Part shown: piece by piece, positions 7,970 to 20,275 of the stretch
How the letters are laid out: each line of letters begins with the position of its first letter
How positions within the stretch are numbered: position 1 is the stretch's first letter
NCBI RefSeq assembly: GCF_963675585.1
Contig: NZ_OY776414.1
Span: 3,389,001 to 3,453,000 of the forward strand
Reading direction: 5' to 3'
Source of the DNA: an uncultured Draconibacterium sp.
GTDB taxonomy: Bacteria > Bacteroidota > Bacteroidia > Bacteroidales > Prolixibacteraceae
Length of the DNA stretch: 64,000 nt
Translations under genes and position numbers: made by a program
The notes under the pieces: generated by a model
The model's database searches: none
The model's input: only the letters and a program-made list of their open reading frames with translations
Told to the model about the DNA's origin: nothing

Positions 7970-10024
7970 CTATTTTATCAACTCTACACTTCGTTTTACA
8001 AATTTGTCCAAATCAGCTCCTTTTAATAACCCGTTGGCAAGTAAAGCTAAATCAACCATTTGTTTTGCAACCTTATTTTGTTTGCCAAAATCAGACAGCT
8101 GATCGCGTTTTGTTTCTTCCAGTTTAGCAAGCTCGGCATTTAAACTTTCCAGTTGTTCTTTTTCTGCTAGTGGAACTTCCTCGTCCTTTTTTCCTTCTTT
8201 TGCTTTTTCAAGAACAGTTATCTCATCTTTTTTGGCTGTTAATTCGCCTGCCAGAGTCTCCAGTTTTTTACCCAATTTTTTGTCTTTGGCATCCAATACT
8301 TTTTTTACCAGCGGATGAGTTGTATTTACTACAAGATTTAAACTTTCAGGAAAATCGCCGTACATGCTCATTCCACCTTGTGCAGCACTCATGTCTTTCA
8401 TACGACGCATAAACTCGTTGCGTGTAATTACCATTGGAGATCCTGTTTCTCCCAAATCCTGGAAATCAACAATAAATGAATAATCCTTATTTTCCGGACA
8501 AACCGCCTGAAATACGGGAGACAATTCCTGTTTTTGTTCCCAGGTAAGTTCTTCTTTTGTGGTATCATCTTTTTTAATCAGGTTTTCAACCACATCAGAA
8601 TCAACACGAACAAAACGTTTGTCGGTATATTTTTGCTCCAGTTTATTAATCAGGTGAGGTGCCAAAACATCATCGAGCACAAGAATATCGTAGCCTTTAT
8701 TTTTTGCCGCTTCAACAAATGTAAATTGCTCTTCCACATTTGTAGTGTACAAATAAATGGTATTGTTGTCTTTGTCAGTCTGACTGTCTTTTACCAGTTT
8801 TTCATACTCTTCCCAGGTAAAATATTTTGCCTCGGTATTTTTCAGCATAAAGAATTTCATGGCACGGTCGTAGAATTTCTCTTCGGTTAACATTCCGTAC
8901 TCAATAAAAATCTTCAGATCGTCCCATTTACTTTCAAAATCTTCGCGACTGTCTTTAAAAATCTGGTGCAAACGGTCGGCTACCTTTTTATTAATGTGGC
9001 TGCTAATCTTTTTCACGTTCGAGTCGCTTTGTAAATACGAGCGCGAAACGTTTAAGGGAATATCCGGCGAATCGATTACACCGTGTAACAATGTCAAAAA
9101 TTCAGGTACAATTCCTTCAACCGAGTCGGTTACAAAAACCTGGTTGCTGTACAATTGAATTTTGTTTTTCTGAACTTCGAAGTTGTTTTTGATTTTTGGG
9201 AAATACAAAATACCGGTCAGGTTAAACGGATAATCCACATTTAAATGAATATTAAAAAGTGGCTCCTCTCCCATCGGATACAATTTCCGGTAGAAATCTT
9301 TGTAATCCTGATCTTTTAAATCGGCCGGCATTTTTGTCCACGCCGGAGCAACATCGTTAATCTGATTGTCAACATCAGTATCAACCTGTGCTCCATCTTT
9401 CCATGTTTTTTCTTTTCCGTAAATAACCGGAACAGGAAGGAATTTGCAGTATTTGTTCAGAATTTCTGAAACTTTTGCATCATCCAAAAATCCTTTTTCT
9501 TCTTCGCTGATGTGCATTACAATATCGGTACCTACTCCGTCTTTTTCAACCTCTTCCAGGGTAAACTCCGGACTTCCGTCGCAACTCCATTTTACGGCCT
9601 GTGAACCTTCTTTGTGCGATTTTGTGATTACATCAACCGAGTCGGAAACCATAAACGAACTGTAAAAGCCAAGTCCGAAATGACCGATAATTGCATTGGC
9701 ATCGTCTTTATATTTATCTAAAAACTCATTGGCGCCTGAAAATGCAATCTGGTTGATGTATTTTTCAACTTCCTCTGCAGTCATTCCAATTCCGTTGTCC
9801 GAAACGGTGATTGTTTTGGCTTCAGTATCTAATTTTACAACAACCTTTGCATTACTAACTTCGCCATTGTATTCGCCTTTGGCGGCAAGTGTTTTTAGCT
9901 TTTGTGTTGCATCAACAGCATTCGATACAATCTCTCTTAAAAAAATGTCGTGGTCAGAATAGAGAAACTTTTTAATAATCGGGAAAAGATTCTCGCTGGT
10001 TACACCAATTTTTCCTGTTTGCAT
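7970..10024 (-). CDS. htpG: Chaperone HtpG (Hsp90)
   Basis: This 684-residue ATP-dependent cytosolic chaperone has the expected Hsp90 layout. An N-terminal GHKL ATPase domain carries SDNGIGM near residue 96 and GHFGLGFYSSFMV near 115. A middle domain carries NVSRSYLQSD near 328. The C-terminal dimerisation domain is rich in Lys/Glu (about 560-684). The length suits Bacteroidota HtpG. No CIRCE operator was found in the 298-base upstream gap, so heat-shock control, if any, is by another route. Confidence 0.97.
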   Translation of the reverse strand: MQTGKIGVTSENLFPIIKKFLYSDHDIFLREIVSNAVDATQKLKTLAAKGEYNGEVSNAKVVVKLDTEAKTITVSDNGIGMTAEEVEKYINQIAFSGANEFLDKYKDDANAIIGHFGLGFYSSFMVSDSVDVITKSHKEGSQAVKWSCDGSPEFTLEEVEKDGVGTDIVMHISEEEKGFLDDAKVSEILNKYCKFLPVPVIYGKEKTWKDGAQVDTDVDNQINDVAPAWTKMPADLKDQDYKDFYRKLYPMGEEPLFNIHLNVDYPFNLTGILYFPKIKNNFEVQKNKIQLYSNQVFVTDSVEGIVPEFLTLLHGVIDSPDIPLNVSRSYLQSDSNVKKISSHINKKVADRLHQIFKDSREDFESKWDDLKIFIEYGMLTEEKFYDRAMKFFMLKNTEAKYFTWEEYEKLVKDSQTDKDNNTIYLYTTNVEEQFTFVEAAKNKGYDILVLDDVLAPHLINKLEQKYTDKRFVRVDSDVVENLIKKDDTTKEELTWEQKQELSPVFQAVCPENKDYSFIVDFQDLGETGSPMVITRNEFMRRMKDMSAAQGGMSMYGDFPESLNLVVNTTHPLVKKVLDAKDKKLGKKLETLAGELTAKKDEITVLEKAKEGKKDEEVPLAEKEQLESLNAELAKLEETKRDQLSDFGKQNKVAKQMVDLALLANGLLKGADLDKFVKRSVELIK

Positions 10025-16511: not shown

Positions 16512-18701
<2,190 letters not shown>

Positions 18702-18723: not shown

Positions 18724-18758
18724 AATAAGGGCTGCAGTAATAAGGCAGCCCTTATTTT
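18724..18758 (+). terminator. Terminator after the GH97 gene
   Basis: AATAAGGGCTGC (18724-18735) pairs with GCAGCCCTTATT (18745-18756), followed by T's. It is a perfect 12-bp stem. Confidence 0.85.
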
Positions 18759-18760
18759 AT

Positions 18761-18919
18761 ATGCCTGCCACTATTATTCGCTTGCGAGCTGGTATTATTG
18801 GCTTGCGAGCTACATTTATTAGCCTGCGAGTTACTATTATTTGCTTGCGAGGTAGTTATATTACTATGCGAGTATATAATATTATAGTGCGAGTTATACT
18901 CGCATGCCATTATTTATAA
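18761..18919 (+). CDS. Possible 52-residue heptapeptide-repeat ORF within the phased array
   Basis: The ATG at 18761 opens a 52-codon frame through the direct half of the 21-bp array. Each DNA unit encodes seven residues, giving a repeating pattern with Leu-Arg or Val-Arg followed by hydrophobic residues (RLRAGII, GLRATFI, SLRVTII, CLRGSYI). It sits right after a strong terminator and has no recognisable ribosome site. It is probably a by-product of the repeat period, not a gene. Confidence 0.15.
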   Translation: MPATIIRLRAGIIGLRATFISLRVTIICLRGSYITMRVYNIIVRVILACHYL

Positions 18920-18987
18920 CTCGCACATCAATTCTAGTAGCTCGCAAGCCATTCTATTTAACTCGCGCCTTATTTTTAGCAGCTCGC
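18784..18987. repeat. 21-bp-phased inverted array (GCGAG x6, CTCGC x5)
   Basis: GCGAG starts at 18784, 18805, 18826, 18847, 18868 and 18889. The inverse CTCGC starts at 18899, 18920, 18941, 18962 and 18983. Both series have exactly 21-bp steps. The switch point is the perfect palindrome TGCGAGT-TAT-ACTCGCA (18888-18904). Spacers are AT-rich (TATTATT-like) and diverge, while the GCGAG cores are unchanged. The array fills most of the 398-base gap between the convergent GH97 and GH130 genes, with no gene or known RNA that I recognise. Confidence 0.85.
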
Positions 18988-19099
18988 ATTGGTTTTTATA
19001 TTGTGAACTGCATAAAAAAGCCACCGACGATAAAGCCGATGGCAAAAATTATTTGTAAAAACCCATCCCGGCCTCACCGCGAAGAGTATTTCCTGCGTG

Positions 19100-20275
19100 T
19101 TATTCCAGAACTGTTGACGACTCGGCCACTGCTATTTTAGAATCAGCAGTTCCGTAATACAGCAACCATTTATCTTTGAAATAAACCAGCCCTTCCAGAA
19201 AACTAACACTGTTTACCTGGCCTGTAATTTCGTAAGGTTTTTCCGGTCTGAAAAAATTAGATTCGGTTCTGGCAATTACTTGCATGGGATTGTTGACATC
19301 AAGCAAAACCTGTCCGGCCGAATAGGTACCTGCTGCCAGATTCGTATCGCCGTAATCTTTGTGGTTTTTCGAATTGTAAATAAATACAATTCCCTTTTCG
19401 GTGAGTATTGCCGGTGGCCCGGGTTCAACCAGTTCGCTGTCGAATTTTCCTTTTCGCGGAGCAAAAATTATTTTGAACGCCTCGTGTTTTCGCATTTCGT
19501 CGTACTGTTTTTTCGACTCATCGGTTTCTTCAACAGGTTCCCAGTCAATCAAATTATCTGACGTAGCCACATAAATATTCGATTCGCCAAAATACATCCA
19601 GTATTTGCCATTAATTTTTGTTGCTACCAGTTTCTCACCCACACGTTTTGTAACAACCGAACCCGATTTAGACCAGATTTTCACATACTCTCCATCTGCT
19701 GTTTTATTAAAAACCGAACCGTGTTTCGTCCAGTTTATCAGATCGTTTGAAGTGGCAACAAACAAACGGGCTTTATCGCCATTGTATGCGGTGTAGGTCA
19801 TGTAATACGTTCCATTCTCATCTTCTACAATTCGCGGATCTTCGCAGCCGCCTTCCCATTCGTATTCCGAAAACGCATCATTGTCGGGATAAAAAACAGG
19901 TGTTGGTTGTGTTTCAAAATGAAGCCCGTCGGCACTAATTGCCATTCCAATTCGCGAAGTTCCGGCATATTTTCCAACTGTGTCTTCAGCTCGGTATAGC
20001 AGGTAAACCTTCCCATCTTTTACAACGGCGGCAGGATTAAACACATCTTTTTCTTCCCAGTGCACAGTGTCCATTCGTACCGGACATAAAAAGGTTGAGT
20101 TGGGATTTGGATTGAGAACCGGATTCACCTCATCTATTTTGGTAAAAGGAGTAAGCGACCAGCTTTCATCTGATGCTTTTTCAGAGTTGCATCCTGAAAG
20201 AATAGAGAGGGCAACCATACTTACCATAAGTACACGCACAAGTTTAAACATATCGTTGATTTTTAGCTTATTCAT
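19100..20275 (-). CDS. Glycoside hydrolase family 130 lipoprotein (beta-mannoside phosphorylase/hydrolase type)
   Basis: This 391-residue five-bladed propeller has a lipoprotein signal ending in LSGC; the start is the ATG at 20275, or the ATG at 20251. GH130 marks are VFNPAAVVKDGKVYLLYRAE, GGCEDPRIV and the closing LLYYGTADSKIAVA. GH130 acts on beta-1,2- or beta-1,4-mannosides, by phosphorolysis or hydrolysis depending on the subfamily. Export as a lipoprotein would place it where phosphate and oligosaccharide are both available, but the mode is undetermined. It is convergent with GH97 across the phased array. Confidence 0.85.
   Translation of the reverse strand: MNKLKINDMFKLVRVLMVSMVALSILSGCNSEKASDESWSLTPFTKIDEVNPVLNPNPNSTFLCPVRMDTVHWEEKDVFNPAAVVKDGKVYLLYRAEDTVGKYAGTSRIGMAISADGLHFETQPTPVFYPDNDAFSEYEWEGGCEDPRIVEDENGTYYMTYTAYNGDKARLFVATSNDLINWTKHGSVFNKTADGEYVKIWSKSGSVVTKRVGEKLVATKINGKYWMYFGESNIYVATSDNLIDWEPVEETDESKKQYDEMRKHEAFKIIFAPRKGKFDSELVEPGPPAILTEKGIVFIYNSKNHKDYGDTNLAAGTYSAGQVLLDVNNPMQVIARTESNFFRPEKPYEITGQVNSVSFLEGLVYFKDKWLLYYGTADSKIAVAESSTVLE

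Follow-up and report, generated by a model that had tools for sequence, protein, structure and literature searches.

The array of short repeats that occupies the gap between two convergent genes in the window (the whole 64,000 nt stretch of Draconibacterium DNA analysed here) is probably an unlinked copy of a kind of array that is often found 3' of the genes for a family of helical proteins, which would bind their own arrays through a C-terminal helix. These proteins, mostly of about 230–290 aa, are here called array-linked helical proteins (ALHP). It is established that the array family exists and is conserved, that gene and array are linked, and that helix and core change jointly. The original prediction, in which the array alone was described, missed the gene family whose members often bear such an array 3'.

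The regularity of the window array (Table 1) far exceeds chance. The pattern GCGAG-N16-GCGAG-N16-GCGAG, with no more than one mismatch, has 15 matches in the 6.03 Mb own genome, all of them within two arrays, and the reversed control pattern at the same stringency has none in the whole of it. The starts of the two central cores are offset by 10 bp, which is also the offset that was fixed in the pattern used to find the 24 arrays of the genus. The core positions and 21 bp steps of both arms had all been predicted and are exactly as given; the turn is indeed a perfect palindrome and the neighbouring genes are convergent. Well-kept arrays have six units per arm and CCCTG or TCCTG caps one in-phase step further out. 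The window array, with six units and five, therefore lacks a twelfth; its outer caps have eroded or are missing, with none seen on the right side. Given the hairpins 3' of both neighbouring genes, transcription from the GH97 and GH130 genes should not cross the array. The loop limit of the terminator scan was 8 nt and the hairpin 3' of the GH97 gene is not listed there.

Table 1. Features of the array and its surroundings, in positions of the window
Feature	Position	Strand	Description
GH97 gene	16512..18701	+	left neighbour of the array
Hairpin 3' of GH97 gene	18724..18756	+	12 bp perfect stem, 9 nt loop; probable terminator, weak T-run
GCCTG	18763..18767	+	one 21 bp step further out than the left arm and in phase with it; may be a CCCTG/TCCTG cap that has eroded
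Left arm	18784..18893	+	six GCGAG cores in 21 bp steps, starts 18784, 18805, 18826, 18847, 18868, 18889 (18784+21n); A/T-rich spacers
Dyad	18888..18904	.	17 bp perfect palindrome TGCGAGTTATACTCGCA
Right arm	18899..18987	-	five inverted cores (CTCGC), starts 18899, 18920, 18941, 18962, 18983 (18899+21n)
Hairpin 3' of GH130 gene	19020..19043	-	intrinsic-terminator-like, with T6; from terminator scan
GH130 gene	19100..20275	-	convergent right neighbour of the array

Similar arrays occur elsewhere. A second one, of the same geometry, is present in the own genome (G000:C4:641157-641381), and a search of 37 Draconibacterium genomes, the own included, with the centre pattern at up to three mismatches located 24 arrays in 11 of them. 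Two more are found in Carboxylicivirga linearis. Each genome has one to three GCGAG arrays. Among 393 genomes sampled evenly across the order, the own genome is the sole match (one mismatch), and the viral contigs searched have none. Of 21 candidate stretches, 8 are from Draconibacterium and 1 from Carboxylicivirga; another 11 have hardly any additional units, or none, and were put down to chance. A locus from the Odoribacteraceae (L058) is an unrelated GC-rich tandem repeat. When 1.13 Mb (overlaps included) were scanned de novo for arrays with whatever core at a score of at least 6, below which some known GCGAG arrays fall, known GCGAG arrays and four AT-rich words were recovered. Tandem pairs of units were also considered as regulated promoter sites and rejected, since 2 of 95 rows from seven genomes lie outside arrays, with one mismatch each, against 4 for the reversed control. 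About 60 bp behind the second own-genome array there is a short tandem repeat of GGTTACA units (G000:C4:641440-641480; L016, about 8441-8481).

The consensus of the unit is approximately TGCGAG-N-T-A-N-W-A-A-T-A-W-W, based on the 220 of 240 in-phase units that have no more than one core mismatch. In three arrays (L075, L078, and L081) one arm or cap has drifted from the phase by 1–2 bp. Base 6 of the unit has changed in concert within GCGAG arrays, the spacers differing nonetheless: across both arms of the same array likeness at this base is 0.60/0.56, against 0.32 between arrays (24 GCGAG arrays).

When assigned by their neighbours, eight arrays are at locus X, between a DUF4924 gene and a DCC1-like gene, seven are at locus Y, between a MutS-like and a ParE-like gene (both named by eye), and eight are at locus Z, 3' of a gene of 236 aa. 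None of these 23 shares the place of the window array. Between orthologous arrays at the three syntenic loci the cores are 92–96% identical and the spacers 53–63%, the figure for the cores being somewhat overstated because units having two or more mismatches in the core were excluded beforehand. Selection on cores held at constant helical phase, most likely for protein binding, is thus the part of the original prediction that stands. The two findings named there as counter-evidence, a lack of similar arrays and a loss of the 21 bp phase, did not come about, with orthologues compared at syntenic loci other than that of the window. The tie to convergent gaps was too narrow as worded, as the locus Y array sits between co-directional genes. 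In G012, G034, G003, and G036, which have no array at locus X, the stop codons on either side adjoin directly (12 of 34 loci read), and in G029 a shrunken remnant of the array is left. The convergent gap at locus X of the own genome (L152), where other species hold the X array, has imperfect short repeats, ACTCCTTACTCCTAACTTATTACTTC.

The small number of arrays per genome, together with the conservation of phase and cores, could also indicate a chromosome-level site for nucleoid organisation, segregation or termination, with a set place on the replichore. In G006 and G012 the arrays have no common position relative to the origin or terminus, as judged by eye from the sign changes of skew in 20 noisy, coarsely spaced samples per genome, and the segregation-type element originally proposed is not upheld in that form. 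Gene-linked arrays also occur in many sequence versions, and a site of this kind is very unlikely.

The gene at locus Z leads to the larger family. Its orthologues of at least 67% identity are present in 8 of the 37 genus genomes, and the Z array is there in all eight. In C. linearis one of the two arrays is directly 3' of a relative of the Z gene (46–47% identity). With more distant paralogues included, there are 56 ALHP matches in 22 of the 37 genomes, and other paralogues have 20–21 bp phased arrays 3' of the gene that are built on different cores (CCTGT, CCTGC, GTAGGA and more). A strict test, in which inverted arrays of an exact 5-mer had to score at least 5 in the 400 nt that follow the stop, was applied to 57 distinct genes (the 56 genus matches and one from Carboxylicivirga, the duplicates L203 and L204 being dropped). 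An array is present behind 36 of these, in front of none, and in none of 2,850 shuffles. Two of the 36 (L222 and L227) are doubtful, the word being an overlapping palindrome, which leaves 34 firm cases. One-arm chains of at least four are found behind 39 of the 57 and in front of none (shuffles 0/1,140), and seven genes do not have a chain of even three behind them.

In the family to which C. linearis belongs, 28 of 71 genomes have an ALHP gene. Fifty loci were read of the 82 ALHP matches (30 listed and 20 picked), and from these L262 and L263 (duplicates) and L255 (short flank) were dropped. By a similar score 16 of the remaining 47 have an array behind and none has one in front (shuffles 0/940); the 16 include three with AT-rich words that score 5, and 31 fall short. 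Across the two sets, L240 and L201 are one gene, and L173 and L218 have short flanks. With a looser array score, a value of 6 is reached by 26 of 408 shuffles and 17 of 102 upstream flanks, and a value of 8 by none. At a score of 6, arrays accompany 42 of 44 long-tailed and 7 of 11 short-tailed proteins in the genus set (p 0.011), and 16 of 19 and 16 of 26, respectively, in the second family (p 0.18). Gene and array are strongly coupled in Draconibacterium; in the second family the coupling is more patchy. No ALHP was found in the plasmids, phages, and viral contigs searched. A phylum sample at E 1e-12 has ALHP in the own genome alone of 395, which understates the spread of the family in light of the 28 positive genomes above.

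Were the array an RNA element, it would be transcribed and fold into a long hairpin, and the fold energy of the window array does beat that of shuffles (z about -6.8), as with any inverted repeat. Opposed spacers are, however, no more complementary than chance (0.447 for cognate and 0.455 for non-cognate spacers), which removes the long hairpin that had been offered in the original prediction as the alternative to protein binding. One-armed arrays exist, and there is no Rfam match in the window at the gathering score. Of the 102 genes scored, 60 have arrays of score 8 or more; 26 of these arrays start no more than 45 nt from the stop and 32 start at least 60 nt behind it. Terminator-like hairpins lie between stop and array in 23 of the 32 late starters (a count made without a shuffled control), or in 20 of 29 when L187, L190, and L219 are set aside, where the intervening hairpin belongs to the array. 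Where such a hairpin intervenes, the array is therefore probably outside the transcript of the gene. A role as RNA is extremely improbable.

ALHP are an undescribed family, without a Pfam model or a matching solved fold. None of the four tested matches Pfam. Two of three have a weak match over most of the protein to NCBIfam NF052641 (PQLLE) at E 1e-7 and 6e-7 (31.9 and 29.4 bits), far below the cut-off of 80 bits that none of the three reaches, and the third has no match. A sequence search of the PDB gave nothing convincing, the best hit having E 0.017 over 31 residues. The AlphaFold2 model, made with 16 hand-picked relatives, is all-helical (pLDDT 87.4, pTM 0.61) and places a C-terminal helix at residues 222–232, and Foldseek found no match to it at E 0.001 or better in the PDB and viral models. 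In the eight Z proteins the last 30 residues have a net charge of +6 to +8, compared with -8 to +4 for the rest.

Tails and cores correspond across ALHP subfamilies. Residues 228 and 231 (numbered on the own-genome ALHP) are the only two of 242 ungapped columns that separate the 8 CCTGT genes from the 10 CCTGC genes, and the same columns are among the 6 of 235 that separate the 4 GCGAGY from the 4 GCGAGG genes. An earlier test on 11 genes, a chosen close subset, had four separating columns; the final test takes all 18. Both subfamilies vary at one common base of the unit, provided that CCCTG is in register with GCGAG, a register taken from the in-phase caps. In the words within 400 nt behind the stop, counting C and T only as the base after [CT]CCTG, N or S at residue 228 goes with T in 93 of 103 and H with C in 67 of 74; K has 28 C and 19 T. 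There are exceptions. L205 was labelled CCTGC by hand, yet has T in 8 of its 12 units, and when it is relabelled one of the 18 genes departs from the pattern and full separation is lost in every column. The rule also does not cover the C. linearis ALHP, which has R at 228, K at 231, and base C.

Body trees intermix core types. For 41 of the 102 genes, those with clear cores, which were labelled by hand with the fragment L264 omitted, the partial correlation of tail and core given the body is 0.366. None of the other 51 segments of 16 columns has a correlation with the core above 0.24. The observed value is reached in 0 of 2,000 permutations, with the same result when permuting only within clusters of like bodies. 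In two pairs of genes, those of G012 and G030 and of G002 and G009, the bodies are 94% and 93% alike and the tail and array differ together, the DNA diverging from the same codons, about 226–228, onward. CCTGY arrays with the same core share spacers (0.69 compared with 0.53, right arms, 7 of the 8 genes tried). The codons of the tail and the adjoining array therefore move as one block. Such movement would fit a specificity cassette, and block exchange alone would yield part of the same signal.

It may be, then, that tail and core are coupled through linkage alone, with recombination exchanging the final codons and the array together while another protein binds the arrays. The tail does adjoin the array, the sharing of spacers and the common point of divergence in the two pairs would be expected, and just 5 of 11 unlinked arrays fit the local ALHP type (see below). 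Linkage alone would not predict, however, that the same two columns separate the genes in two subfamilies varying at one base, nor that arrays are kept behind paralogues in two bacterial families, and it is unlikely as the whole explanation. The joint change of the DNA word and the protein tail instead suggests that the array is recognised by the ALHP.

The arrays that are away from ALHP genes are a free test of this coupling, and they give no support to it at base 6. In genomes with a GCGAG-type ALHP there are 11 such arrays. Base 6 matches the local helix type in five (the window array, X of G002, and Y of G006, G024, and G030), mismatches it in five (X of G006, G024, and G030, and Y of G009 and G012), and is mixed in one (X of G009). 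In light of this tally the window array may be read by the GCGAG-type ALHP regardless of base 6, may be read by another protein, or may no longer be read. A GCGAG-type ALHP is present in 7 of the 10 genomes with X, Y or window arrays and in 1 of the 27 others, relatedness being uncontrolled; G005, G008, and G013 have kept X or Y arrays without one. Intact cores average 10.3 of 12 per unlinked array where the ALHP is present (11 arrays) and 8.6 where it is not (only 5 arrays). No ALHP remnant was found adjoining the X, Y or window arrays.

If ALHP do bind their arrays, the window array would present 11 (ideally 12) candidate protein-binding sites facing one side of the DNA. The best candidate ligand of the GCGAG arrays is the ALHP encoded at G000:C4:640417-641124, which has its own array with the same core. 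One protomer or dimer would occupy each 21 bp unit, equal to two helical turns, with the core read by the basic C-terminal helix and base 6 by the helix face carrying residues 228 and 231. Twelve phased sites could thereby seat a one-sided row of protein. The least secure part of this is the use of the window array in trans by that ALHP, which is put forward tentatively. As to what such a row would do, docking or bridging between arrays is a first guess and a rather doubtful one; about as likely is that the row is an end or target through which the module is mobilised.

The ALHP gene and array may themselves be such a module, small and either mobile or gene-converting, with the X, Y, and window arrays as its non-autonomous copies in the manner of RAYTs and REPINs, and the array as the recognised end or replicative unit, not a site that serves the host. 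The array-free X loci with abutting stops resemble empty sites, the window array is alone at its place, and there are up to nine ALHP copies per genome. In G837 three dispersed copies of an ALHP gene with its 3' region are 99–100% alike over 1.5 kb, and the shared stretch has a sharp edge some 720 nt 3' of the stop. These copies are, however, short-tailed ALHP without a clear array (strict score 4, the noise level), none of the ALHP searched matches a transposase or nuclease family or fold, there is no established target-site duplication, and most of the few GCGAG arrays in each genome are syntenic with kept cores. A mobile module is rather unlikely, if by no means far-fetched. Syntenic retention and conserved cores point to arrays that the host uses or to a module with a long history of vertical inheritance, and host use and mobility may both hold.

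REPs are present in hundreds per genome, and plasmid iterons are direct repeats about two helical turns apart beside the gene of their binding protein. ALHP arrays resemble iterons in that spacing and in being beside the gene of a putative binder, and differ from them in having inverted arms and no known replicon; nor did Pfam, NCBIfam or PDB sequence searches match any of the ALHP searched to a Rep initiator or winged-helix protein. RAYT-REPIN systems (PMC3116915) share with ALHP a gene with its own type of repeat, several types per genome, and extra extragenic copies elsewhere. The ALHP repeat is instead a 20–21 bp phased array, GCGAG arrays are far from hundreds per genome, and the conserved hairpin from an inverted pair of repeats is lacking in the GCGAG arrays tested. 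There is likewise no sign of a tyrosine (Y1/HUH) transposase in Pfam (four ALHP), in NCBIfam (three ALHP) or in the all-helical model. For spread within a genome, there are the empty X sites, the lone window copy, and the three like copies in G837 without a clear array. ParR-parC plasmid partition systems form families that do not bind one another's sites, and the likeness here is of a small DNA-binding protein, putatively so for ALHP, with its own cluster of sites (PMC9426499). ALHP arrays differ in being chromosomal, 3' of the gene, and often inverted, and the protein family is another one. No ParM-like or ParA-like gene was seen by eye among the ORFs at eight array loci. In mode of action ALHP would be closest to these three systems, and the comparisons made place their arrays in none of them.

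On present sequence evidence ALHP could, tentatively, be a new class of sequence-specific DNA-binding proteins with an evolving code in one C-terminal helix, in which helix and array form an exchangeable cassette and unlinked arrays are places of assembly in trans. If so, this would account for a type of intergenic array of which no description was found among open-licence papers, and the ALHP gene with its own array would add a new kind of gene-plus-site module to bacterial chromosomes. The core families would offer a natural dataset from which to read the recognition code, and with dozens of paralogues that have different cores and matching helices this code is directly testable.

Some features adjoining ALHP genes, or elsewhere in the own genome, are of separate note. 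A family of 154 bp tandem repeats adjoins the ALHP gene copies of G837 (L261, L262, and L263), with 4.7 copies in L261. The own genome has five equal-scoring ORFs of 239 aa for DnaA-like ATPases (G000 C1:815583, C3:417217, C4:117539, C4:2137033, and C4:2717860), which are presumed here to be insertion-sequence helper ATPases. In L264 (G428:C77) an ALHP gene is reduced to a C-terminal fragment of 81 aa, which still has a CCTGT array behind it and the matching tail.
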